Below, piece by piece: positions 26,693 through 42,198 of a stretch of DNA of 42,198 nt. A model generated the notes under the pieces. The model was not told the origin of the DNA and did no database searches. It worked only from the letters and a program-made list of their open reading frames with translations. The first letter of the stretch is position 1. The number at the start of each line of letters is the position of its first letter. Both the position numbers and the translations under genes were made by a program. The DNA is taken from assembly GCA_029834535.1 (NCBI GenBank), contig JAQMWT010000041.1:1-42198 (forward strand), written 5' to 3'. The stretch is from Chrysophaeum taylorii. Lineage: Eukaryota > Sar > Pelagophyceae > Pelagomonadales > Pelagomonadaceae.

Positions 26693-26746
26693 ACGCCTCG
26701 GGTGTAGACAAACACCCACAGGGCCACACATGTAGCGTAAGGAGAA

Positions 26747-27067
26747 TTTTAGGGGCTACCTGGCGTGCCTTCGAATCCTGGCTCGCCGATCGCGTCCGTG
26801 CCCTTGGTGGGATCACTGGACGAGGATGGCCGTTCTCCCGCCACGCGACCACAAACAACTTCCGTGCCTGGTCCTCTCAACTTGAGGATCGGCTGTTGCT
26901 TTATGATCAAGGATAATCGAAAATCAGAAATCAGGGTGACATGCGTCACGGAAAAGGAAGATGATGTCATAGAGAACACTGACATCATCGGAACGGAGTA
27001 GGGTGCCCCTGATAAGGGGGGGCCCTAGAAGAGGGGTAAGCCTTAGGAGGCGGAAGTTGCCGCCACA
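26747..27067 (-). repeat. 3' LTR of the gypsy-like element (promoter deleted)
   Basis: 321 nt, colinear with the 5' LTR except for a 71-nt gap and about three substitutions. In element direction it starts TGTGGCGG just after a purine-rich tract (AGGGGAG, near 27072-27078), a likely plus-strand primer. The lost 71 nt contain the TATA box. It ends ...CCCCTAAAA rather than the usual CA. Confidence 0.85.
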
Positions 27068-27107: not shown

Positions 27108-27971
27108 CTAGCGCGAGGAGCGCGGCTTCGCCTTACGAGCATCTCGTGAACGAATCTTCTGGTAAACGCGGGTGATGATCGGTTCAGGAACTCGACCACT
27201 GCGTAAAGTAAACTTGGGGACCAACACGTCAATCTCGTGCGGAGCGAAATCCGTGACACAAGGAGTTGTGTTGGAGGAAATTCGGGACTTGTCGGTGAAA
27301 CTTCGACCTTCAACGTCCTTGAATTCGGGCTTGAGCTTGCGGTGCGAAAGGTGAGAGGTCGGCTTGAAATAAGCGACATCATCGTTCGGACCCAAATCGG
27401 AATAGAAATGTAGAGCACCACGATCATTTTGGTAATCGTAAGGCTCGTAAACTTCAGCAACATAAATCTTCTTGCGCCAATCAGAGCGCTCGGGAATTCG
27501 GAAAACAACAAACTTACCGTGCTGATAATCATCACGGAAGGTTTCTTCGGGTTTGCGGATGGTTTGATCAACGATCGGAGGTACCATCACAGGCGTGATC
27601 TGACTTACATGAACACGCCGCTCTTCGGGCGGAGAGTCGAGAGACTCAATCCTATAGGTGACCGGGGAGAGGCGTTCCTTGATAATAAACGGTCCTCGCC
27701 ATTCCGGTCGAAGTTTGTTCTGAAGGAAAGGGATGTAGAGCAAAACGTGCGATCCTTCCTTGTATTCAACATCAACATGATCAGCATTGTAAGCCAATCG
27801 CTGTTTCTTCAAAGCTTTATCACGAGCTTCGCGGACGATCTTTGTATAATATTTCAATCGTTCGCGAGTTTCGGCGACTGCATCAGAGCGAGTCTTCGGC
27901 AATAATCGTGTATCAAAATCCATGAGCGTGTAGTCAGTCGGCAGCATCGGCTGACGGTTCAGGCGCAGCAT
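27108..27971 (-). CDS. Gypsy-like integrase C-terminal region with GPF motif and extra tail domain
   Basis: The 287-codon frame starts within integrase (LRLNRQPMLPTDYTLMDF, the region after the catalytic core). It continues with a basic helix (AETRERLKYYTKIVREARDK) and the GPY/F module KLRPEWRGPFIIKERLSPVTYRI. After this comes an additional small domain of about 70 residues, KKIYVAEVYEPYDYQ...ALHFYSD...AYFKPTSHL, with a chromo- or SH3-like beta pattern. This tail could target integration to chromatin, by analogy to chromodomains of chromoviruses; it is not a recognisable chromodomain. A basic end (RDARKAKPRSSR) follows. The upstream core is frameshifted. Confidence 0.75.
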   Translation of the reverse strand: MLRLNRQPMLPTDYTLMDFDTRLLPKTRSDAVAETRERLKYYTKIVREARDKALKKQRLAYNADHVDVEYKEGSHVLLYIPFLQNKLRPEWRGPFIIKERLSPVTYRIESLDSPPEERRVHVSQITPVMVPPIVDQTIRKPEETFRDDYQHGKFVVFRIPERSDWRKKIYVAEVYEPYDYQNDRGALHFYSDLGPNDDVAYFKPTSHLSHRKLKPEFKDVEGRSFTDKSRISSNTTPCVTDFAPHEIDVLVPKFTLRSGRVPEPIITRVYQKIRSRDARKAKPRSSR

Positions 27972-28450
27972 AAAGGGAGAAATCTGCGTGCCTGGAATAA
28001 ACTTGCGGTTGTAGCAAAACGCAATATAATGAGCAAAGTCAGGCCAATCCGTGATGTTCCGGCCTTGAAGGCAAGCACGGAGGAAGGCCTTGATAAATCG
28101 GTTGACACGCTCAGCCGGGTTCGACTGGGCATGATAAGGAATCGTAGTTTGGTATCGTGTGTTAGAGATGGCAAAACTCGCGCATCAACTTGTTCACGAA
28201 CTCTTTACCGTTGTCGGTACGAATCATCTGGGGCAAGTAGCCCTTGAGGAGAATGTTAATGACACACACAAGACTCGAGGACAGACTCAGCAGTCTTATT
28301 GTTCAAAACATCCAGAATCAAGAAATGCGAGAACGGATCAAAAATACTAGAAGATACGTCTCGGGACCAGCGCTGGGCAAGGGTCCAAATAAATCCATGC
28401 AAAGAACAGCACCATCACCATCGTAGACGGGCTGCTGCAAGAGCCAGCTC
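27965..28450 (-). pseudogene. Gypsy-like integrase catalytic core, frameshifted
   Basis: Pieces in different minus frames give the DDE triad: LCMDLFGPLPSAGPETYLL (first Asp, about 28390), QMIRTDNGKEFVNKLM (second Asp, about 28215) and SNPAERVNRFIKAFLRACL (Glu, about 28110). Stops after SCVCH and after FCHL and at least three frame changes separate them, so no active integrase can be made from this copy. Confidence 0.85.
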
Positions 28451-30002
28451 GTTTCGGCTCAGGCGTACGAGCTTTCTGGCAAACTAAGCATTCAGCAATG
28501 AAGACTCCAACTTCGTTCGACATGTGAGGCCACCAAAATCGTTCTTGGATAGCCTGGACGGTACTGTGACGTCCCATATGACCACCGTTAACCGGAGTGT
28601 CATGGTAGAGTCGAATAATGCGCTTGCGCAACGTAGCAGGTGCAACCATCATCGGGTGCGAATCAGCAGAAATGCGATAAAGAACATCTTTAACGACTTC
28701 GAATCGTTCGTTCGCTCGGGAACGTCGCGGCGTCTGACCTTGGGCCATTCGGTAGCGAATATCCTCGCAAGTAGCATCAGATTCTTGCTCACGTGCGATC
28801 TCAACGAGCGTCATATTATCGGGTATCTTATCGATATAATCTTTGTAAGCGGCTGCGTCCTTGAAGATCTGTGGCTCATCACGCGCACGGTTCTTCCGAC
28901 GTTGTCTCGTAGCGTGAGACGTTGCCAATTTCATCGGATCCTTTTCAGGGTCTTCGTCTTCCGGCAGTTCGGTCGTAATAAACGACATTATGAAGTGGCA
29001 GCCAGAGACGGGAACTCCTCGGTCATCAACAGGTCGGGGAAGCTCTTGGAACACTAAATACGCGTGGTTCAAAGGTTCTCCAAACTCGTCAGTCTCGATG
29101 ACATGATCTATCGGGTTGCGGGAGAGACAGTCAGGGATACTCATTCCCGGTGACTTTCCCGGCTTGTAACCAAGTTCAGGGTCAAAATTGGCGAGGCGCA
29201 TCGCCCAACGAGCAAGCTGCCCAGACGAGTGCGTCGCCTTACGTAAAAACGTCAAATTTCGGTGATCGGTCTCCAAAACAGTCCGGTGCCCTTCGATGTA
29301 GGCTCGAAAGTGCTCTAGAGAAAGTATAACTGCCAGCAGCTCTAGCCGACGAGGCTCATAATTCCGCATCTCCTTCGGCACAGCTCGGCTCCAGTATTCA
29401 ATTACTCGTTCTTCTCGAGTCACTCTTCCGGCATCGTCCTTGACTTCGACAATCTGGAAGAGATATGCTCCAAGTCCATCCTTGGAAGCATCGGATCGGA
29501 TCTGAAAAGGCAGATCATAATCGGCGTGGTAGACTCCACGGGAATCAACCAAAGCTTCAATAATCGTATCCCAAGCTTTCTGACACTCGGGCGTCCACTC
29601 GAACTTTACACCTTCGAGGCATAATCGTCTTAACGGTTCCACAATCTTCGAGTAGCCCTTCACATATCGCCGGCAGTAATTACTCATGCCGATGAAAGAG
29701 CGTATCTGGGTCTTCGGGGAAGTATTCGGTAAAGTACCTGGAATCGGCATCTTCTGCAGTGCTTCCAGCGTCTTTGGATTCGGCTTCAAGCCTTCTGGGG
29801 TAGAAATGTGTCCCAGAAATTCTATATCATCCTTGAGAAGGTGGAACTTCGCGGTTCGACCGCTGTACCCTCTCTGTGCCAAATGACACATCACTTCGAT
29901 CAAAACTTGTAAATGTCGATGAAGATCGTCGGATCCCATCATAATATCGTCAACAAACGCAACCAAGTCTTGATACATCCATTTCGAAAGGTCGCTCGCC
30001 AT
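28347..30002 (-). CDS. Gypsy-like reverse transcriptase C-half, RNase H and integrase zinc finger
   Basis: The 551-codon frame begins inside RT with the catalytic AFVDDIMMGS and the fingers/connection segment FIGMSNYCRRYVKGYSKIVE. RNase H follows: LPFQIRSDASKDGLGAYL (first Asp), EYWSRAVPKEMRNYEPRRLE (Glu), and VLETDHRNLTFLRK (Asp). A spacer with DEDPEKDPMKL precedes the H2C2 zinc finger of integrase (HDTPVNGGHMGRH ... WWPHMSNEV ... ECLVCQ). The last 40 codons are out of frame after a small indel near 28440. Domain order is the Ty3/gypsy order RT-RH-IN. The first Met is internal to RT, so the true product was a polyprotein. Confidence 0.9.
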   Translation of the reverse strand: MASDLSKWMYQDLVAFVDDIMMGSDDLHRHLQVLIEVMCHLAQRGYSGRTAKFHLLKDDIEFLGHISTPEGLKPNPKTLEALQKMPIPGTLPNTSPKTQIRSFIGMSNYCRRYVKGYSKIVEPLRRLCLEGVKFEWTPECQKAWDTIIEALVDSRGVYHADYDLPFQIRSDASKDGLGAYLFQIVEVKDDAGRVTREERVIEYWSRAVPKEMRNYEPRRLELLAVILSLEHFRAYIEGHRTVLETDHRNLTFLRKATHSSGQLARWAMRLANFDPELGYKPGKSPGMSIPDCLSRNPIDHVIETDEFGEPLNHAYLVFQELPRPVDDRGVPVSGCHFIMSFITTELPEDEDPEKDPMKLATSHATRQRRKNRARDEPQIFKDAAAYKDYIDKIPDNMTLVEIAREQESDATCEDIRYRMAQGQTPRRSRANERFEVVKDVLYRISADSHPMMVAPATLRKRIIRLYHDTPVNGGHMGRHSTVQAIQERFWWPHMSNEVGVFIAECLVCQKARTPEPKRAGSCSSPSTMVMVLFFAWIYLDPCPALVPRRIF

Positions 30003-30711
30003 TTGCTTGCAGAAAAGAGCCGGCCGTCTTCACACCTAGAGGTAATCGCAAGAAACTATGAGCGCCAAGTGGGCTAACCATCGTGACAGCGTCCTGCGCT
30101 GCCGGATCCAGACGAAGGTTGTGGTATCCCCATCTAATATCAATGCATGTCCGCCATCGTCTCATCGCGAGAAAGGCTAAAGCATCATCTTGTCGAATGT
30201 TTGGCCAACTGTCATTGACCAATTGATCGTTGAGCTGACGTAAGTCAACTGCAGCACGGAACGCGTTTGACGTTCCAATCTCAGCTCCTTTCTTCGGAAG
30301 CATCAACACAGGAAAGTCCCAAGGTGAGTTGGCCGGACGAATGACTCCATCCCGGCACCACTCGCTGATCTGCTTGCGGAGACAATCGAGCTTCGCAGGC
30401 GTCAATCGGTAGGGTGTCATCTTAATCGGTCGCGGATTCGCGTCTTTGAATCGTAGAGACACAGGAGGCGAGTCCACAGGTCTCATAATCGGGTCGAAAA
30501 AGGCCCAAGAATATTGCACACAGTGACGGAGCATCAGTTTCGCATCGTCATCTAAGTGCGGATTGTCAGGAATTCCCAGCTCCTGCACAACCTTGTCAAC
30601 TTCTTCCTTCGTAGGAATTTTAACTTTCATTGCTTCGTTGTCCTTGACATGCTCAGGAGTCTGCGGCAGTGGTGCACCCTCGGCATCGCGCGGCGCATCT
30701 TTCCATGGCAC
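29950..30711 (-). CDS. Gypsy-like reverse transcriptase N-half
   Basis: This 253-codon frame carries RPIKMTPYRLTPAKLDCLRK, EWCRDGVIRPANSPWDFPV, a basic PKKG, RAAVDLRQLNDQLVNDSWP and the first catalytic Asp in CIDIRWGYHNLRLDP, then PLGVKTA. A 1-nt loss near 30020 shifts the frame before FCKQMASDLSKW of the next ORF. A second frame change near 30690 separates it from the remnant of the methyltransferase linker. The linker into this ORF is charged (KDNEAMKVKIPTKEEVDKVV). Confidence 0.88.
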   Translation of the reverse strand: MPWKDAPRDAEGAPLPQTPEHVKDNEAMKVKIPTKEEVDKVVQELGIPDNPHLDDDAKLMLRHCVQYSWAFFDPIMRPVDSPPVSLRFKDANPRPIKMTPYRLTPAKLDCLRKQISEWCRDGVIRPANSPWDFPVLMLPKKGAEIGTSNAFRAAVDLRQLNDQLVNDSWPNIRQDDALAFLAMRRWRTCIDIRWGYHNLRLDPAAQDAVTMVSPLGAHSFLRLPLGVKTAGSFLQANGERPFEMDVSRLGCVC

Positions 30712-31010
30712 ATCGAACTTTTCTCGTATTTTAGTTTCACTTCCGGGTGGCTTTTGTTGATCCTCTCGCCTTTGACACGAACACTCGGCTCGCTCTTAAT
30801 CTTCGGTTCCCGATCTCGCTCAGAATCTGGCGGAACGTCTAAATTTGGTTGTGACGTCCCACACATTTCGTTGGCTCGTTGGAGACCTAAAGTACTGCCT
30901 CCGGCTCCACTGAACAGCATCACCACCTTGCGATAAGTGATTGGAAGCCATTGAACCTTTTCATATCGGCGGCGGATCTCCGCTTCGGTGATCTCGCGGC
31001 ATTTCTTCAT
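30711..31010 (-). pseudogene. C5-DNA methyltransferase remnant: motif I only, catalytic part deleted
   Basis: It encodes KKCREITEAEIRRRYEKVQW and then VVMLFSGAGGSTLGLQRANE (motif I, AdoMet binding), nearly identical to the copy at 34239-35630. After CGTS the sequence jumps to QPNLDVPPDSERDREPKIKS, a charged linker leading to RT. About 1 kb of methyltransferase (motifs II-X) is missing. The junction lies at ACAACCAAATTTAGAC, which also occurs at the distal end of the other copy near 34310. A 2-nt deletion in an A-rich stretch shifts the frame just upstream. Confidence 0.9.
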
Positions 31011-31503
31011 CTTCTTCCGACCTTCGAGCGAAATCGTCGCTGCCTTCAGGTCGTTTGAGGGTGGACTTGTCCGCCATGGCGGTCGTAGCGTCCTTCTGCA
31101 CCGTGCTCAGCAACATCGGCGGAGGAGATTCGTCGCATCGCGTCAAGTGACTAGCGACAGAAACGGTGAAAGAAAGGTTCCCCTTGTCGTATCCTTCTTC
31201 ACATTCTTTCGTAAGTTCATTGATCGTAGAGACGTTCAACTCATCTTCGTATCTAACGATATCACCAATCGCAAGGACTTCGCCTTGAGTGACGACCGTC
31301 GGCACTTCTTCCGTGGCAGTAACCGCCACCCGAGCAGCGGACCGGTTGCGCTCTTCGCAAGAAGAACACATTCCTTCGACAACTCCCAACTGCTCGTTCT
31401 CAGCAAACGTAGCGACGAAAACCTGTCCTCTTTCCATAGGCTTCGACAAAATAACCGGTAGATTGTACGTTCGACCGGGCTCGATTTGACGTGCGCGCAG
31501 CAT
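30961..31503 (-). CDS. Protease-distal region leading into the methyltransferase
   Basis: This 180-codon frame encodes RQIEPGRTYNLPVILSKPME, VFVATFAENEQLGVVEG, a CSSC pair, and TQGEVLAIGDIVRYEDELN. It resembles the beta-rich segment that follows retropepsin in many gypsy polyproteins. It continues with MLLSTVQKDATTAMADKSTL, shared almost exactly with the start of the other methyltransferase copy, which shows that protease and methyltransferase were joined in one polyprotein. Its last codons are frameshifted. Confidence 0.65.
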   Translation of the reverse strand: MLRARQIEPGRTYNLPVILSKPMERGQVFVATFAENEQLGVVEGMCSSCEERNRSAARVAVTATEEVPTVVTQGEVLAIGDIVRYEDELNVSTINELTKECEEGYDKGNLSFTVSVASHLTRCDESPPPMLLSTVQKDATTAMADKSTLKRPEGSDDFARRSEEDEEMPRDHRSGDPPPI

Positions 31504-31661
31504 AAGCGTTACTCTCGCGCGTCTTCTCCCGGAGCTGGGGAGAATTTGGTCGTAGCATGTCCCCGCGTAGCCAAGGCTACCTTACGTTCCGGCGGCGGGC
31601 TTCGGAGATCTTTAATCGTGCTCAAACGAGCGTAAACTCGAGTCTTGACCAGGTCGAGACT

Positions 31662-33857
31662 CTACCGAAAGGCATCGTGTTGATGATTGTAAATCGGTAC
31701 GGTTATCGGATTTCGATCGTAAATAGACCGAAAGGTCACGATTGGTGCATCGACTCGTTCATCCTTAACTTTAATCTTCTTGCGCCCGTAGACGACTTGG
31801 GTTCGACAAAAACAGATCCGATCATGGGGAAAATCCACGATGGCTCCTAAAACTCGTATATCGCGCCCTCCCAACAGGAACAGATAATTCGTATCGGCTA
31901 CAATAGCGACAATGGGGGCAGCGAAGTCGTCGGCGAAAGCGACCCGAAGGGCGATCCAACGATGGATCGTCGTCGTATTCAATCCTGATCCGTACAGCTT
32001 GCGCTTAATCGGAAGTTCGCCTTCATCGAAAATCAACTGATCTTTGGTCAACTTTTTGACCATTTCTCGGCAAATATAAGAAACATCTGCCATTCCATCG
32101 ACACCGATGGTCGTCGAGAATTTCGGTCCGTCACGATTCCTGTAGATGTGACAGGCTATAAACGTTAGAGTACCCGTATCTAAACAACGGAGGGTAATCA
32201 AATCATCTTCGATCGTCTTGCCGTCTCGCGGCGTCAACGAAGTGTGAGCACATCGGGCTCTGATTCGCTCATCTCCGGGGTTGGGCATCGATACCGCGGC
32301 TTGAGCTTTCGTATCATCTGTTGTTGGCGTCTTCGCCATAACGCTCGCGGTAGCCTCTTTATCTGGCGGCTTCCGCTCTTCCTCCAAGACAATCTCAGAG
32401 GGAATCAGTGCTGGTAGGGGATCCTGGTCTTCGTAGTTCACGGAAGCAAAGGACCCCTCCCATAAATCATTCATTTCGTCTTTCCAGAATGCATCTGTAA
32501 ATTCATTCGTCGCCTGCTGATCCTCATCAGCATCGGCGATCGGTTCCGTGTCAGCTGCGGCTTTGAGTCTGCAGCTGCGCGGTTGTTCTGGTGGCTTCTT
32601 TAGCAAGAAATTCCGAGCTTTCGTCCACCAATCCTGCAGGTTCCACGTCGGCTCGTCTTCGTCCCGCTTGAGAACGCTGCTTATCTTCTTCATAAATCTA
32701 TCCTTTTCTTCCGGCGGCGTATCCGTGTCTCGATCCGTAGTAATCGAAACCGTTTCGGGGGGGTCCGCAGGAAAAGATGGCGTCGTCCCCGACGTCAACT
32801 CTATCGTAAAATCGTCATCTGCATTACTCGCGCTGGTCATCGTCTCGTCAGTCGAATGCGCGAACGAGTTATCACTGCAGAAATTCATGTCTGGCTCACA
32901 GCCAGTTCGGTCGCCGGCGGTCATCTCTGGAGGGTCCAAAGATAAGCCGATGGCATCGAGGGCTTCCTCATCAAAAATAAACGGTGGGTCGTCCGTGGAC
33001 GACCCGTCAAATAACGTTAACGCAGACACTGGTTCACAAAGTGTAGCTTCTTCATCTTCCGAATCTGAATCGCCTTCCCAGTATCGTGGAGCTTCAAGTT
33101 CCTCGCTCGAATCTTCGAGCTCATCGCTCGACATCTGCTCATAAATCTGTGCCAAAGACCGACGATTGGTCAGCACGTCGTTGGGTGGCTCGTCCATCGG
33201 TGGGCGAGCAAGATCTTCGAATGCGGCCGCGGCAAGGGCGTCGGCTGCGTCGTCGGTGCGGGTGTCCGCGTTCGGGTACACCGTCACTCCTAATGGTAAC
33301 TGTTGACCGCAAGGGGTCGTAAATGCGAACGTTGCAGACGACTGTCCCGAGTCTTCTCGGTAACGACCATCGTCCGAATCTCGATTGCGAGATCTTCGTC
33401 GCCGGCGGCGGCGTGAATGTCTGCTAGAGCTCCTGCTATCTTTCCGTCGGCGTTGGCACGAGCTGCTACGGCTCTTGTCGTGGCGTCGGGGGCTCCGGCT
33501 ATCTCGACGGCCCGTTCGTGTCGAAGACGATCGGCCGTGTCCATCTGTTAAGTGCTGCACGGTACTCATAACCGTGGTTAGCTGCGTGCTCATATCATTG
33601 AGTCTGCTCTGAATATCGTGAGCAGCGCTCGAACCGAAGGTGGCATTAGAACTACCGTCGTCACGCGAATGATTATCTTTCCTTTGTCGGCTCTCCCATC
33701 GTCCTCGCGAAATGGGCTTTCTGCCGTCTACCCGGGTACCGCTGCCGCAGGCGAGCGGAGTGAGATCGCAACTCACGGATAAGGCATTGTTTGCCGGGCA
33801 GAGACGAGTTCTGCCGCCCACCGTACGGATAGATTTGTCGGTGGAAGACGCACGCAA
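31662..33857 (-). CDS. Gag-protease of the gypsy-like element
   Basis: 731 codons. The N-terminal part has a helical segment (AAHDIQSRLNDMSTQLTTVM), then a long Arg/Ser-rich, nucleic-acid-binding-like stretch (SSSRHSRRRRRRRSRNRD). A long acidic, low-complexity middle follows, with no CCHC zinc knuckle. The C-terminal part (about 590-700) has a retropepsin-like fold: GVDGMADVSYICREMVKKL in the active-site position and LFLLGGRDIRVLGAIVDF in the second conserved position. The active-site triad reads D-G-M instead of D-[ST]-G, so either the protease is altered or this copy is mutated. After the stop, about 150 bp in a shifted frame (SLDLVKTRVYARLSTIKDLR) bridges to the next ORF. Confidence 0.75.
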   Translation of the reverse strand: MRASSTDKSIRTVGGRTRLCPANNALSVSCDLTPLACGSGTRVDGRKPISRGRWESRQRKDNHSRDDGSSNATFGSSAAHDIQSRLNDMSTQLTTVMSTVQHLTDGHGRSSSTRTGRRDSRSPRRHDKSRSSSCQRRRKDSRSSSRHSRRRRRRRSRNRDSDDGRYREDSGQSSATFAFTTPCGQQLPLGVTVYPNADTRTDDAADALAAAAFEDLARPPMDEPPNDVLTNRRSLAQIYEQMSSDELEDSSEELEAPRYWEGDSDSEDEEATLCEPVSALTLFDGSSTDDPPFIFDEEALDAIGLSLDPPEMTAGDRTGCEPDMNFCSDNSFAHSTDETMTSASNADDDFTIELTSGTTPSFPADPPETVSITTDRDTDTPPEEKDRFMKKISSVLKRDEDEPTWNLQDWWTKARNFLLKKPPEQPRSCRLKAAADTEPIADADEDQQATNEFTDAFWKDEMNDLWEGSFASVNYEDQDPLPALIPSEIVLEEERKPPDKEATASVMAKTPTTDDTKAQAAVSMPNPGDERIRARCAHTSLTPRDGKTIEDDLITLRCLDTGTLTFIACHIYRNRDGPKFSTTIGVDGMADVSYICREMVKKLTKDQLIFDEGELPIKRKLYGSGLNTTTIHRWIALRVAFADDFAAPIVAIVADTNYLFLLGGRDIRVLGAIVDFPHDRICFCRTQVVYGRKKIKVKDERVDAPIVTFRSIYDRNPITVPIYNHQHDAFR

Positions 33858-33899
33858 CGACGATATTACGCGTGTCGTGGACGATTAGAAGTTCCAGAG

Positions 33900-34362
33900 C
33901 CGAAGGAGCACGAGAACGACGGCGACTCAACCATTTTGGACCCGCTCTGACCTCGGCCGACTAGAACGAGCCAGAGCCGATATGGAAGACGATGATGCTG
34001 CCGTCGAGCAGCTACGATATGAAGAACCGCCAAGCCGTCAGGATGAGACGAACGAGCGGAATGACGATGATGATAATGATGACGATGAAGAAGAGCACGA
34101 TACAGAAGTTGACGAGGAAGAAGAGCTAAACTACAACGACGGCAAGCCCACGGAGAGACCGACGGGAGGACGATCGACAGCTCCGTCAACGCGTGCAGAA
34201 CCCCCAGATGCAACGAAAATGAATGAGTTCTACGAGGCTCACTTGCGGGCATTACGCGAAGAGAACGAACGCGCGCAAGAACGACTTTTAAAACAAATAG
34301 GGGAAGAGAACGAACGTCTAAATTTGGTTGTGGGGGGGGGGGCAGCAGAAGAAGCATGAGAC
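33900..34362 (+). CDS. Inverted acidic coiled-coil fragment, probably retroelement gag N-terminus
   Basis: On the plus strand, opposite to the element, a frame from the ATG at 33982 encodes an acidic run (DDDDNDDDEEE) and an evident coiled coil: NEFYEAHLRALREENERAQE and RLLKQIGEENERLNLV. Gag proteins often begin with such a coiled coil. The frame ends where the methyltransferase segment starts, at GAACGTCTAAATTTGGTTGT, a 20-nt sequence also present at 30835-30854 at the deletion junction of the other copy. The inversion therefore likely arose by recombination or template switching at this sequence. Confidence 0.55.
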
Positions 34363-35630
34363 GTCCCCGGCTCATCTGTTGCAGGCGGAATCAACGGTAC
34401 CTCTGGAGGTTTCCATTTGGTGAGATCTTGAAGATCATCAGTCGACACCCATCTTATGACACGTGTGCGCGTGTTTAACAGCGGAACTTGTACGTGACGG
34501 AGGGTGGTTTCATCAATTTGTAAATAATAATCAAACGGTCGGTCTGTAGGACTCCAAGCTGACGGCAAAGCTTCGCCGCTCAGGCGAAATTCCTTGGTCA
34601 CAGAGTTGTGCAGATCGAGTATTAATAAGGCCATCGTGTCAGGTGGCACGACGGACGCCAAGTGTTTCAACGAGGTCGTCTTGGAGAGGCCGGCCCAATC
34701 AAAATCAGGGGGCATCGTCAGCAACTCCGAAGTCATTTCCAAATTCAGAGATCTGCAATCGGAACGGTGCGGTCCTACGCGAAGCGGGACACGCGTAACA
34801 GTATAAGCTGCGTCTGTCGCGGCTCGTGATGATCCTAAATTGTTCATCTGAAGTAAATGTCGTTCGTCGGTGTAGCCAAGTGCTGCGGCGAACTTTTGCT
34901 GCATATTCTTGCAAGTCTTTGGAACTGCGCGCAAATGGAGCGGATGGCTGGAAACCAACAATCGCACGCGACAGCTCATCAAACTAGGAGTTATGTCGTA
35001 AAAATTGACGACGTATACGTACGGGTGCAAACGCGCAACATAAGAAATAATCGAAGCCTCCTGCTCTATCAACCACATGAAGAAACCAGCCATCTTGCAT
35101 AATTTCATCGTCCAGTGGGTAGCGGTAACTCCTTTCCCAACATCTCTGGAGGTCAAGTTGCACAGAGCGGAGTGTACGCAGGGTGGCGACGCGACACACA
35201 TCGACGACGACCATTCCGCGTAGGGTAAATAAGATTCGATCAACCGTAAGGTTGTAACATAGCGACCACACAATGTGTGCTGCACCACAGGAATATTCGG
35301 AAAGTTCTTGTGGTGGATCTGGTTGGCGGTGTCCGACGCATCGAGTGCTAGCACGACTCGAAACGACGTCCCACACATTTCGTTGGCTCGTTGGAGACCT
35401 AAAGTACTGCCTCCGGCTCCACTGAACAGCATCACCACCTTGCGATAAGTGATTGGAAGCCATTGAACCTTTTCATATCGGCGGCGGATCTCCGCTTCGG
35501 TGATCTCGCGGCATTTCTTTTCATCTTCTTCCGACCTTCGAGCGAAATCGTCGCTGCCTTCAGGTCGTTTGAGGGTGGACTTGTCCGTCATGGCGGTCGT
35601 AGCGTCCTTCTGCACCGTGCTCAGCAGCAT
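34239..35630 (-). CDS. C5-cytosine DNA methyltransferase carried by the gypsy-like element
   Basis: The 463-codon open frame has most C5-methyltransferase motifs in order: I LFSGAGGSTLGLQ (68-80), II region LALDASDTANQIHHKNFPN (94-112), IV VASPPCVHSAL (146-156) with catalytic Cys151, VIII-like SCRVRLLVSS (219-228), IX-like SLNLEMTSELLTMPPDFDW (294-312), and X-like SVVPPDTMALLI (326-337). Motif VI (ENV) is weak. A target-recognition region lies between VIII and IX. Such enzymes transfer a methyl group from AdoMet to C5 of cytosine. No stop or frameshift interrupts it, in contrast to the RT and integrase nearby. The first 60 residues equal the end of the protease-distal region, so it was part of the polyprotein. 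The last roughly 35 codons read through the junction with the inverted fragment. Confidence 0.88.
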   Translation of the reverse strand: MLLSTVQKDATTAMTDKSTLKRPEGSDDFARRSEEDEKKCREITEAEIRRRYEKVQWLPITYRKVVMLFSGAGGSTLGLQRANEMCGTSFRVVLALDASDTANQIHHKNFPNIPVVQHTLCGRYVTTLRLIESYLPYAEWSSSMCVASPPCVHSALCNLTSRDVGKGVTATHWTMKLCKMAGFFMWLIEQEASIISYVARLHPYVYVVNFYDITPSLMSCRVRLLVSSHPLHLRAVPKTCKNMQQKFAAALGYTDERHLLQMNNLGSSRAATDAAYTVTRVPLRVGPHRSDCRSLNLEMTSELLTMPPDFDWAGLSKTTSLKHLASVVPPDTMALLILDLHNSVTKEFRLSGEALPSAWSPTDRPFDYYLQIDETTLRHVQVPLLNTRTRVIRWVSTDDLQDLTKWKPPEVPLIPPATDEPGTSHASSAAPPPTTKFRRSFSSPICFKSRSCARSFSSRNARK

Positions 35631-35633
35631 CGG

Positions 35634-36025
35634 TTTTAGGGGCTACCTGGCGTGCCTTCGAATCCTGGCTCGCCGATCGCGTCCGTGCCCTTGGTGGGAT
35701 CACTGGACGAGGATGGCCGTTCTCCCGCCACGCGAGCACAAACAACTTCCGTGCCTGGTCCTCTCAACTTGAGGATCGGCTGTTGCTTTCACAGGGGTAT
35801 ATATAGCCCCGGGCACTTGCGCACACCAGGACCGGCATTCCTACCCTTCCTTTTGGCTTTATGATCAAGGATAATCGAAAATCAGAAATTAGGGTGACAT
35901 GCGTCACGGAAAAGGAAGATGATGTCATAGAGAACACTGACATCATCGGAACGGCGTAGGGTGCCCCTGATAAGGGGGGGCCCTAGAAGAGGGGTAAGCC
36001 TTAGGAGGCGGAAGTTGCCGCCACA
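35634..36025 (-). repeat. 5' LTR of the gypsy-like element
   Basis: 392 nt, colinear with the 3' LTR. It includes a 71-nt segment (35790-35860) absent there, bounded by GCTTT on both sides. In element direction it runs TGTGGCGG ... CCCCTAAAA and is joined directly to CCGATGCTGCTGAGC of the methyltransferase segment, so the primer-binding site and gag are missing at this junction. Confidence 0.88.
35798..35806 (-). promoter_or_regulatory. LTR TATA box
   Basis: CTATATATA in GC-rich surroundings inside the LTR, read in element direction. It is the likely core promoter of the retrotransposon; the 3' LTR has lost it. Confidence 0.6.
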
Positions 36026-39213: not shown

Positions 39214-40701
39214 TCAGCAGGCGACTTGCATGAACGCCAGCTTGCCAAGGAGGGTGGCTAAGTGCGAGTTGATGTACAACTCTGTTTCAGAGCTGGGAGT
39301 GCCATCTTTATACTTGAAGGACGAGGACATAGGATATTTAAGTGGAGTAACTTGCTGCAAGACAGGATGATCAGCGAAGACTTCATCAAGCTTGGCTTGC
39401 ACATCCTGAGAAATGGATCCATCAGATGTACGACACACACGCATGCCTAGGAGGGTATGGACAGGTTCAAACTGCTCTACAGCATACCGTTTGTGGAGGG
39501 CATCCTGTAACTCAGTACGAAGAGTGTCATCATTGGACACAATAACAATGTCGTCTACAGACAGACTGCATACGACGAACTTAGCATGTGCGGATACTCG
39601 AGCATATAGGAAAGAGTCCGAATGCAGGCGCTTGTAGCCAAGGCTACGGAAGAAGCCGTCTATCTCTATGTTCCAAAGAGATGGCGATTGCCGAAGTCCA
39701 TAAAGTGACTTCAGCAGTTTCGGTAGGCGTCGGCCCTTGTAGTTAGCGTCATCGGGGTCGATAAGCTTGATGCCGTCTGGTAACTGAACGTAGACGTCGG
39801 CATCAATGTCAGACTGAACGAAGGCGTTCGGGACGTCTGCGTGGTAGACAGGCAATTGCTTGTATGCTGCAATCGCCAGTAGTACCCGGATTGCGGTCAT
39901 TGTGGCGATTGGGCTGAAGGTGCCAAAGAAATCGGCGCCAAGGCAGGCTAGGAAGCCACGTAGCACGAGGCGAGCCTTGTGCTTAACGTATTTGCCTGCA
40001 AAGTCCGTTTTAATCTTCAGCACCATCCTGCTGTCAACAGGACGAGAGACACCGTCGTGTAATGAAAGCTTGAAGCAGCCAAAGAGGACAATGTCGAGGA
40101 GTTCCTTGGCGATGGCCTTGAGGTAGGCGTGCCTGTCGTCAGGCGACATACCGTGGAGGCACTTGAGCTTGTATTCGTCGATGGAAACGTCCGCTTCTTG
40201 GACCTTGTATTCATCGGGACCAATAGTGGCTGGTGAACTATAGTTTAACGACGTTGCGGTCGAGGCAGTGAGCGCGAATTCGGGATAAGCGGAAACAGCG
40301 TCAGTAGGAGGGGTAGAGGAAGCAGATTCTAGTTGAATATGGATAGTAGGGTCGACATGTAAGACCTGAGTGATATACTCTGTAGAGACCAGAAGGTATT
40401 CCTCCAAGTCAGACAGAGATGCAGAATTAGCGCCAAAATCGGAAGAATTGTGATCGATAAAGCTGGTTGGCGCCAGATACGTAAGTGCATACTGTAGTGA
40501 AGAAATGCCAAAGGCAGCAGCGTGCTCAGTGAACGCAGCTAAAAGAGGCTGAGAAATGGAGCGCGTAGGTGAACCATCCGCAGTTAGAAAGGTTGCGGCT
40601 GGGATGCTGGATGCGCACTTAGCGTGGGCGAAGTAACCATCGACGTGAGGGTAACGGGCAAGTAAGTCAGTGCGCAACGGGAGAAGAAGACGAGCTAACA
40701 A
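39214..40701 (-). CDS. Copia-like reverse transcriptase
   Basis: 495 codons, open throughout. The RVT_2 domain (about 165-430) has SRPVDSRMVLKIKTDFAGKY (the usual WV.K.K.D..G....KARLV), KARLVLRGFLACLGADFFGT with FSPIATMTAIRVLLAIAA, VYHADVPNAFVQSDIDADVY (first catalytic Asp), LLKSLYGLRQSPSLWN, and SVDDIVIVSNDD, where the usual YVDD is SVDD. The first 160 codons are a poorly conserved linker from integrase and include the first copy of the 21-nt motif, read as TATSLNY. RT is essential for copying the element RNA into DNA. The Tyr-to-Ser change at the catalytic box could impair it. Confidence 0.92.
   Translation of the reverse strand: MLARLLLPLRTDLLARYPHVDGYFAHAKCASSIPAATFLTADGSPTRSISQPLLAAFTEHAAAFGISSLQYALTYLAPTSFIDHNSSDFGANSASLSDLEEYLLVSTEYITQVLHVDPTIHIQLESASSTPPTDAVSAYPEFALTASTATSLNYSSPATIGPDEYKVQEADVSIDEYKLKCLHGMSPDDRHAYLKAIAKELLDIVLFGCFKLSLHDGVSRPVDSRMVLKIKTDFAGKYVKHKARLVLRGFLACLGADFFGTFSPIATMTAIRVLLAIAAYKQLPVYHADVPNAFVQSDIDADVYVQLPDGIKLIDPDDANYKGRRLPKLLKSLYGLRQSPSLWNIEIDGFFRSLGYKRLHSDSFLYARVSAHAKFVVCSLSVDDIVIVSNDDTLRTELQDALHKRYAVEQFEPVHTLLGMRVCRTSDGSISQDVQAKLDEVFADHPVLQQVTPLKYPMSSSFKYKDGTPSSETELYINSHLATLLGKLAFMQVAC
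40241..40261 (-). repeat. 21-nt boundary motif, copy 1
   Basis: In element direction GACCGCAACGTCGTTAAAC then TA, inside the linker just upstream of the RT domain, encoding TATSLNY in frame. Confidence 0.8.
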
Positions 40702-41400
40702 CGCATGTTCCCCCTCTGAGCAGATAGCAGACCAGAGGATACCACCATCGTGACGTAGGGCGGAGAGGGCGGGAGACTTGAACGTAAGAAAGTGGTGGCG
40801 AAGATCCCAGCGGAATCGGCGAGTTTGCCACCAGCGGCTTTGTAAGCACCAATAGTAGACGCTTGCAGCCGGGCTTGGATATTTTTCATGGAGGTTGCCT
40901 TGCGGTTGTTAGGTTGTTTGGAACCTGGGACAAGAATGAGGTCATCTTGTGCAAAAAGGTCTTTGTAAGAAGGAAGCAAGGGCGGCGGTGGCATAGAGCC
41001 AGAATCGTCGACGGGAGCGTCGGAAGAGGAGGAGAAGCAGGAGCAGGGACGAAGAAGGAGCTGAGGGAGGTGGAGAGTGCCCCCTCTGAGGATGAGGTGT
41101 CCCCCTCTGAATGAAATGGTCTTGGATAGCGGCGTGGGGTGTGAGCGAGAAAGGCGCTGGAGGAGCGTGAGGCGGAGGAGCAAGTTCAGGATCAGGAGTA
41201 GGATGCTGAGCATGTAGAGGAATGTAGCTTGGACGAAACACGATTTGACCGTTTTCAGGGTTGAGGACGACGTCGGTATGGTCAACACGTGGGGAGACGA
41301 GCGGGTTTGCGCGTTGGCGCAACATAGATAAGCTATTTGCGGCGGCACGGTTCCCACTTGTGGTGCTGGGGTTCCAATAGAAGGTAGCATTCAGCGCGAA
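40695..41400 (-). pseudogene. Integrase-RT linker region, low complexity
   Basis: Frames here hold a short integrase-distal segment (HTDVVLNPENGQIVFRPSYI, typical of the copia integrase end), then Pro/His/Ser-rich low-complexity sequence (FSSSSDAPVDDSGSMPPPPL), SYKDLFAQDDLILVPGSKQP, and a CCCCCTCTGA-type direct duplication (41089-41108 and 40708-40718). Frame changes near 41150 and 40720 are needed to connect it to RT. Confidence 0.6.
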
Positions 41401-42198
41401 ATCTTGAGCATGTCATGCTGGGGAGTGCTCAGTTGATTGTAGAGAGCTGCTGCGGACTCAGGATAGCATGGTGAATGCGCTCGCGTGGCGTTCCGGAGAA
41501 GGTTGTAGCTTTGGGTGTGTATCACCGCCCAAACATGATGGCTGGTTCCACGATCTTGGAGCCACGATAATGAGCATTAAGGAGAGAGCGAAGGCGAGTT
41601 GAGGAGGCGGCGATGAAGCCGATGGCAGACTCAACTTCAAAGTAAAAGTGGTGCATGTACGGCGGGGCGATGAGCTGAATGCCCTTATCGACCGGTACGG
41701 GGGTAATGTGCGGCTAAAGTAGGCTTGAAGGCATCGGAGTAGAGGGTGCGCAGGTGCATTGAGTTGTGTACGACGTCATACACAAAGTCCAGAGCTTGAG
41801 TGAACTCCGTGGCGTTGGTGGTGCGTGTAAAGTACACCGAAACTTCGAGATAAGTTCCTTGAACACAATGATATGGGTGAATCCCCATTCTGACGGAATT
41901 GTCACATAGCCGCCGTCGCACGCCCAGACTTCGCGGGCTTGGTGAGTTTGCTCAAAAGAGGGCTTGGTATTGAAGTGCTTGTGCGGGTGGCGCTTGCTGT
42001 GCACGATGCAGTTGGTGCATAAGTCGCGATACGGTAGATCTGAGGCAGAGAAGCCAGGGCGAGCCAGTAAGTTGGGGCCTTGGTTGCAACGTTGTCGGGG
42101 CAGTGGTCCGGTGTGCTGACTGGCACGTTCTTTGGCGTTGGAGGTATTCAGCAGATCCGTGTGCGAGGATTTGCGAGGAATGTGATGCGAGCGGGGGA
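41400..42198 (-). pseudogene. Copia-like integrase (zinc motif and DDE core), frameshifted
   Basis: From the right edge: an H...H...CTNC zinc motif (CTNCIVHSKRHPHKHFNTKP, about 42020-41960), WACDGGYVTIPSEWGFTHII (first catalytic Asp), a frame change near 41850, SVYFTRTTNATEFTQALDFV and LRTLYSDAFKPTLA (second Asp), another change, then HHFYFEVESAIGFIAASSTR (Glu). The region before the Glu lacks the usual N-G sequence. The element's gag and protease would lie beyond position 42198. Confidence 0.8.

Follow-up and report, generated by a model that had tools for sequence, protein, structure and literature searches.

Cells commonly silence retrotransposons by cytosine methylation. The window analysed here is the whole of one contig (C41, 42,198 nucleotides) from an assembly of 70.8 Mb in 697 contigs, and it contains a long open reading frame with cytosine-5 (C5) methyltransferase motifs among retrotransposon sequences. 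We asked whether the methyltransferase (MTase) belongs to the retrotransposon and, if so, what it may do there.

A scrambled element in the window

An earlier note, made from the letters of the window, had described an uninterrupted MTase frame built into a Ty3/gypsy-like polyprotein. The frame exists. It is 463 codons long on the minus strand, and the plus strand there is full of stops. The C5-methyltransferase profile PF00145 matches ORF residues 64-119, around motif I, with 23.6 bits where 22 is the cut-off (E = 4e-5). Motif I (FSGAGG) starts at residue 69, followed by the motif IV Cys at 151, the motif VI Glu at 189 and the motif VIII Arg at 221 and 223; these numbers equal those of alignment A4 plus 28. 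Motif VI reads IEQE in the window ORF, not ENV. The features below were placed by profile matches and by comparison with C5b, an uninterrupted copy elsewhere in the assembly.

34239..35630, minus strand: 463-codon ORF with the C5-methyltransferase domain at about residues 62-346; a displaced element segment
34332..34342, minus strand: poly-C tract of 11 C at the MTase/RT junction; its length varies between copies and sets the frame
35634..35789, minus strand: LTR piece, 99.4% identical to 26747-26902 and 97.4% to the C5b LTRs
35856..36025, minus strand: LTR piece, 98.8% identical to 26898-27067
33730..34316, plus strand: inverted leader/gag-start segment, 98.8% identical to the C5b copy, in opposite orientation to the rest
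30853..33335, minus strand: gag/protease region and the first ~90 codons of the MTase ORF (ORFs 31662-33857 and 30961-31503)
29950..30711, minus strand: first part of reverse transcriptase (RT); RVT_1 is weak here (E = 0.21) and has E = 8e-12 in the uninterrupted C5b copy
28347..30002, minus strand: end of RT, RNase H and integrase zinc-binding domain (PF17917, E = 4e-26; PF17921, E = 1e-18; PF00078, E = 1e-4)
27108..27971, minus strand: C-terminal part of integrase (PF22938, E = 1e-6)
26727..27067, minus strand: 3' LTR of the element, matching both C5b LTRs

As the note had observed, the start of the ORF is repeated inside the neighbouring element, with 35365-35633 matching 30853-31119 at 98.5% over 269 nt. 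In the window itself the MTase does not lie inside a polyprotein: this copy is scrambled, and the MTase segment (34312-35633) has been moved beside an LTR piece. About 32 C-terminal residues of the ORF lie past the poly-C tract and run into the inverted piece. The internal copy is without 1,029 nt of the MTase, deleted at junction 30852/30853 relative to C5b. Judged by its sequence, the window copy is a rearranged member of a Ty3/gypsy-type LTR retrotransposon family that was active recently, and the rearrangement could be a by-product of retrotransposition or else a misassembly. A different, copia-type element occupies 39214-42196 (RVT_2, E = 4e-41).

Full-length copies of the gypsy A family

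A search of the assembly found at least 92 copies matching the window ORF at 74-100% identity (92 scored of 1252 candidates), and 59/92 of the copies listed, counted by eye, are free of stops in the matched stretch. The order gag-protease-MTase-RT-RNase H-integrase, which the note had proposed for the element, is visible in other copies as single frames of 3,063 and 3,067 codons. Multiple copies, and an MTase joined to RT in one frame, are thus both present elsewhere in the same genome. The order, the copy number and these single frames place the MTase within the gypsy polyprotein between protease and RT. Three copies illustrate the architecture.

C5b (L031+L032): 3,063-codon frame; direct repeats of 341 bp, 98.2% identical
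C5a (L033+L034): 3,067-codon frame; direct repeats of 336 bp, identical at 336/336 positions (100%); element of 10,288 bp
C477: shorter copy with a 2,393-codon frame; repeats 99.7% identical over 337 bp

C5a and C5b lie 24 kb apart on a 657-kb contig (C5:519501-556500). An LTR pair was found in 5/10 regions examined, and the pairs of two further copies are 94.5% and 90.8% identical. The LTRs start with TGTGGCG and finish with CGCCACA, giving TG...CA ends. No clean 5-bp target-site duplication was seen at the two C5 copies inspected. AGGAG adjoins one C5 copy at its 5' end and the other at its 3' end.

Pfam domains in the 3,006-residue C5b frame are MTase motif I (1386-1441), RVT_1 (1940-2104), RNase H (2174-2311), H2C2 (2495-2553) and rve (2571-2664); PF00145 scores 18.4 bits in this frame, below its cut-off of 22. 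Protease has no Pfam match in the frame and was placed by eye, from VDGMAD and a flap-like LLGGRD. The usual aspartic protease motif is D[ST]G. The putative active site reads DGM in gypsy L013 (VDGMAD) and DGG in copia L051 (IDGGAS).

A C/G tract of variable length separates MTase from RT. The RT frame was located in 30 gypsy A copies: RT shares the MTase frame with no stop in 14, shares it with a stop in two, and lies in another frame in 14. The length of the junction tract switches the polyprotein between fused and split. Homopolymer slippage or sequencing error suffices to account for the differences in length, and programmed frameshifting at this junction is only an idea. The contig pairs C10/C297 and C25/C521 carry near-identical loci at near-identical positions. 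They may be allelic or duplicated contigs, in which case copy counts would be inflated.

A very divergent C5 methyltransferase

Of 7994 candidates scored from a collection of 5.8 billion proteins, none matched the window protein at E <= 0.001, and profile A4 retrieved two weak PF00145 proteins from the protein collection (E = 0.007 and 0.85). Among solved structures, methyltransferases matched only at E = 0.1 and over motif I alone; the top two were DNMT2/tRNA-methyltransferase chains. No MTase structure matched beyond motif I, and one further structure search returned none at all. No chain named DNMT3 appeared among the solved-structure matches up to E = 10. Viral contigs gave no confirmed relative among 28 and 39 pattern matches. 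Matches to phages (11 and 38 records) and plasmids (8 records) were partial, none covering 80% of the query.

On its own the domain is difficult to recognise. A combined profile of gypsy A and a related family, gypsy B, matched seven bacterial, phage and environmental C5-methyltransferases at 99.2% (E = 7e-20, columns 64-348 of 449), and hhalign placed the leading Glu of EQE opposite that of ENV. Every one of the ten A/B rows in A4 keeps the GAGGS core, ASPPC, both Glu of W--E-E and R-RLL. The Cys, Glu and Arg-x-Arg positions, which we take to be motifs IV, VI and VIII, are unchanged between gypsy A and B, although the two are only ~37% identical there. ENV is absent from both families, with EQE or EEE in its place. 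On this evidence the gypsy domain is identified as a very divergent C5-methyltransferase.

Motif conservation was counted in 32 loci chosen by an intact motif I, 31 of which have the whole region (29 gypsy A and 2 gypsy B). ASPPC is kept in 31/31 and WLIEQE in 29/31, the two B rows having WTLEQE. [CS]RVRLL is kept in 28/31, the exceptions being L006 (RARLL) and the two B rows (SRTRLL), and 25 fit a stricter form of the motif VIII pattern. SVVPPD is kept in 28/31.

Gypsy B and copia-type families also carry methyltransferases

In gypsy B (L055, L057, L058, L063 and L064) the domain sits in the same place and is 36-37% identical to that of gypsy A. The family has at least 107 matches (96 scored of 1050 candidates) and frames of up to 2129 codons. 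Three gypsy B sequences each have two stretches that match PF00145 (34-38 bits, E = 2e-8 to 2e-9). The better stretch is C-terminal in L058 and L063, reaching profile position 321 of 324, and N-terminal in L055.

Scanning the genome with PF00145 gave at least 121 matches (123 scored of 474 candidates). The best 57 of 121 rows (to E = 2.4e-4) were sorted by eye into 48 copia-type, 2 host-type (C634, C621) and 7 others; the profile ranges of the other 64, which score lower, are gypsy-like. The seven others (C64:38045, C193:27577, C395:19786, C490:57866, C23:3967, C216:62478 and C683:59821) have copia-like scores and ranges.

The copia-type family (C96 L051:596-4000, C314 L053:2-2806 and C545 L059) has at least 125 matches (116 scored of 662). 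In C96 a protease-like IDGGAS, recognised by eye, is followed by an MTase with PCQ and ENV, then integrase, then the start of RVT_2; C314 has a protease-like stretch and then the C5-methyltransferase. In the 1135-residue C96 protein the MTase spans 349-477 and rve 1016-1110 (E = 0.003, below its cut-off). A downstream piece of 1 kb breaks off at RVT_2 (E = 0.0016, also below cut-off). From these weak single matches the order in C96 reads clearly as protease-MTase-integrase-RT, which is of Ty1/copia type.

The copia profile matched the middle part of C5-methyltransferases at 98.3% (E = 2e-14, 140 columns) and also at 96.5%, gave one match in the protein collection (E = 0.095), and did not match the gypsy MTase profile (0.2%). 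In a tree built without any Dnmt3 sequence, gypsy rows and copia rows formed separate 100/100 groups, neither joined with host genes, and the deep order had no resolution. An AU test on 18 rows, leaving out 5 of the tree's 23, did not reject a single gypsy plus copia clade (p = 0.61, the constrained tree being even slightly better). Also not rejected were gypsy with DNMT2 (0.42), gypsy with DNMT5 (0.20) and copia with DNMT5 (0.26). The profiles and groups suggest that the gypsy and copia MTases were likely acquired separately.

The window's own copia family is also abundant (at least 86 scored of 2054 candidates), and no PF00145 row lies near the few copies inspected by eye (such as C9 and C560). 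As this family is abundant apparently without an MTase, elements do not require the enzyme to succeed. The window element is 35% identical to the MTase-bearing copia over a 91-residue RT overlap.

Selection and mutation

Pairwise dN/dS was calculated by NG86 for the MTase (29 sequences, 2 of them from family B), the upstream protease region (20) and RT (7). Rows bearing stops were excluded (2 MTase, 9 protease, 20 RT), the RT losses being mostly due to the frame change at the junction. For the MTase, dN/dS was 0.324 at dS < 0.03, 0.21-0.24 at dS 0.03-0.2 and 0.139 above. For the protease region it was 0.36-0.40, falling to 0.19 above dS 0.2, and for RT 0.17 overall. With stop-bearing rows included, values at dS < 0.2 were 0.227 for the MTase (353/441 pairs) and 0.377 for the protease region (159/370).

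Between gypsy A subfamilies (C5, C472 and C441 vs C235 and C619) dN was 0.12-0.15 and dS 1.15-1.45. Gypsy B pairs gave dN/dS of 0.14/1.0 between subfamilies and 0.031/0.102 and 0.015/0.019 (L063/L064) within them. Copia pairs gave 0.27-0.32/1.4 between and 0.071/0.143 within. A dN/dS of about 0.1 between subfamilies indicates that the MTase is under purifying selection. A frame open by chance is ruled out by these values. Constraint is clear across large divergences and weak among the youngest copies, a pattern to be expected if many new insertions are already inactive.

C-to-T change at CpG showed no excess between copies (per site CG 0.0145, CA 0.0120, CC 0.0214, CT 0.0247). Nor was CpG depleted, observed/expected being 1.29 in one element and 1.35 in a host stretch of the window. 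With neither excess change nor depletion, there is no footprint of CG self-methylation.

The host and earlier cases

Two host-type MTase genes were recognised. The DNMT5-like gene (C621, L054:1467-3998) has a 2086-codon open frame and matches 7r76 at E = 3e-143; this structure was deposited as 'DNA repair protein Rad8', and we take it to be Cryptococcus Dnmt5. The DNMT2-like gene (C634, L052:124-1101) matches 1g55 at E = 8e-39. No DNMT1/3/6-type host gene was recognised among the PF00145 matches listed, a scan that exon-split genes could escape. The large subunit of Rubisco, on a 103.6-kb contig, has 7yk5 as its best solved match, then 5mz2 and 5n9z, all presumably diatom enzymes. PF00504 has 84 matches, some being fragments of a single gene. 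The Rubisco match fits a photosynthetic stramenopile, in agreement with the note's suggestion of a lineage different from the earlier cases, and the abundance of light-harvesting genes makes a pelagophyte a tentative guess.

Those cases, in Symbiodinium and Klebsormidium, are borne out by the literature. DNMTs occur in Symbiodinium LINE and DIRS elements and in a Klebsormidium Gypsy Pol (PMC5890265), where earlier DNMT-RT links are credited to Iyer 2011 and Lin 2015. KnitGypsy-Dnmt3 of Klebsormidium nitens is Dnmt3-derived, lies within the Gypsy Pol ORF and has several intronless copies with Ka/Ks < 0.2 (PMC5890265). It resembles gypsy A in having a C5-methyltransferase in Gypsy Pol, multiple copies and purifying selection. 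However, KnitGypsy groups with Dnmt3, whereas the gypsy A/B enzyme is a long-branch orphan with EQE rather than ENV, for which no close relative was found. KnitGypsy has a DIRS-like repeat layout (PMC5890265) and gypsy A a conventional ~336-bp TG...CA LTR pair; the host of the former is a charophyte and that of the latter an ochrophyte-like alga.

SymbioLINE-Dnmt and SymbioDIRS-Dnmt3 are alike in high copy number, a conserved MTase, several families per genome and one orphan type. Their carriers are LINE and DIRS elements, in contrast to the LTR Gypsy and Copia elements here, and Symbiodinium Copia is described as without the domain (PMC5890265). SymbioDIRS-Dnmt3 enzymes carried out de novo CG methylation in yeast; KnitGypsy and SymbioLINE enzymes gave no methylation there, a result called inconclusive in that paper (PMC5890265). 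DIRS elements with a Dam-like adenine methyltransferase are also DNA-modifying retrotransposons, but the adenine enzyme is structurally unrelated (PMC5890265).

DNMT3 in LTR Copia and DIRS elements of streptophytes and dinoflagellates, and orphan DNMTs, are reported in PMC12344493. Its Copia case is likewise an LTR element with a C5-methyltransferase, but a DNMT3, and the 2018 paper it cites reports Gypsy, not Copia. No copia element with a non-DNMT3 C5-methyltransferase was described in the accessible parts of the literature searched. The brown alga Ectocarpus, a stramenopile, has a mobile element, Sola1-1_Ec32, that also carries a DNA methyltransferase gene. This element is a DNA transposon whose enzyme is separate and of ParB-plus-N4/N6 type, not a C5 enzyme within a retrotransposon polyprotein (PMC12477816). 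The available text of PMC9998398, PMC3145265, PMC12477816, PMC6338049 and PMC10538959 does not mention a C5-methyltransferase in a stramenopile LTR element; most subscription journals were outside reach. As far as these searches go, the kind of element is already published, and what is new is a further lineage, an orphan enzyme and three families. Because no resemblance to Dnmt3 showed up, an origin independent of the earlier captures is plausible.

Possible role of the methyltransferase

The order, copy number, near-identical LTRs, conserved catalytic positions, purifying selection and related MTase-bearing gypsy and copia families are read directly from the DNA. As to function, we lean towards a gypsy-borne C5-methyltransferase that is carried in Gag-Pol and methylates the element's own DNA in a recently active family, and self-methylation is the mechanism we infer to be best. 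The MTase would be made as part of Gag-Pol, would be packaged in the virus-like particle, and would methylate the element's newly made double-stranded DNA and possibly also chromatin at the landing site. On entering the nucleus, a new copy would already bear 5-methylcytosine, and the DNMT5-like enzyme of the host could preserve this mark. An element marked in this way would be favoured through weaker sensing by the host, less attack by nucleases or a smaller fitness cost. The host DNMT5-like gene and the activity of SymbioDIRS-Dnmt3 enzymes in yeast speak for this reading. Counting against it are the altered motif VI, the missing CpG footprint, the weaker constraint in very recent pairs, structure matches confined to motif I, the yeast results for KnitGypsy and SymbioLINE, and the abundance of an apparently MTase-free copia family.

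We wondered whether the domain might instead be kept for RNA binding or methylation (of genomic RNA or primer tRNA), or for a non-catalytic nucleic-acid-binding or assembly role in Gag-Pol. The loss of Asn-Val from motif VI, the two DNMT2/tRNA-methyltransferase chains that head the structure matches (through motif I only, at E = 0.1) and the lack of a CpG mutation footprint are consistent with such a role, and RNA has been raised as a target of the LINE enzymes (PMC5890265). However, the Cys, the Glu and both Arg are invariant across the ~37% identical families, unlike a dead domain, and the copia enzyme retains PCQ and ENV. Grouping with DNMT2 was neither supported nor rejected (AU p = 0.42). 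We regard this explanation as possible but doubtful.

That the MTase acts mainly in trans, marking host or rival-element DNA de novo with self-marking as a side effect, seems unlikely. The host-type genes recognised in the PF00145 scan are only DNMT2-like and DNMT5-like, which leaves room for a de novo role, but 7 of the best 57 rows are of the other, unplaced type and exon-split host genes could escape the scan. It is more speculative still, and we think improbable, that the element MTases are the de novo arm of the alga's cytosine methylation, with three LTR families, whose two very different enzymes each follow the protease, putting 5-methylcytosine on incoming element DNA and the host DNMT5-like enzyme only maintaining it. 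If true, genome methylation would be seeded by parasites, repeatedly, in both LTR superfamilies.

A host MTase overlapped by a chance insertion, an assembly artefact or a contaminant is highly improbable even though the window copy is scrambled and on a 42-kb contig, since at least 92 copies lie on many contigs, two with frames of >3,000 codons on a 657-kb contig, and related gypsy B and copia families also carry the MTase. For the family, the artefact and host-gene readings are refuted, a host gene under a chance insertion being ruled out by copy number and frames; the scrambling of the window copy alone could be an assembly error.

Retrotransposons here carry and conserve the type of enzyme that cells use against them, and under the favoured reading of self-methylation the parasite may exploit the silencing mark for itself. 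In two gypsy families and in one copia family the domain lies downstream of the protease, which suggests that it brings a repeatable advantage linked to the particle or cDNA stage. With a DNMT5-like gene and an apparently MTase-free copia family side by side in a compact genome of 71 Mb, the function of such enzymes becomes testable.
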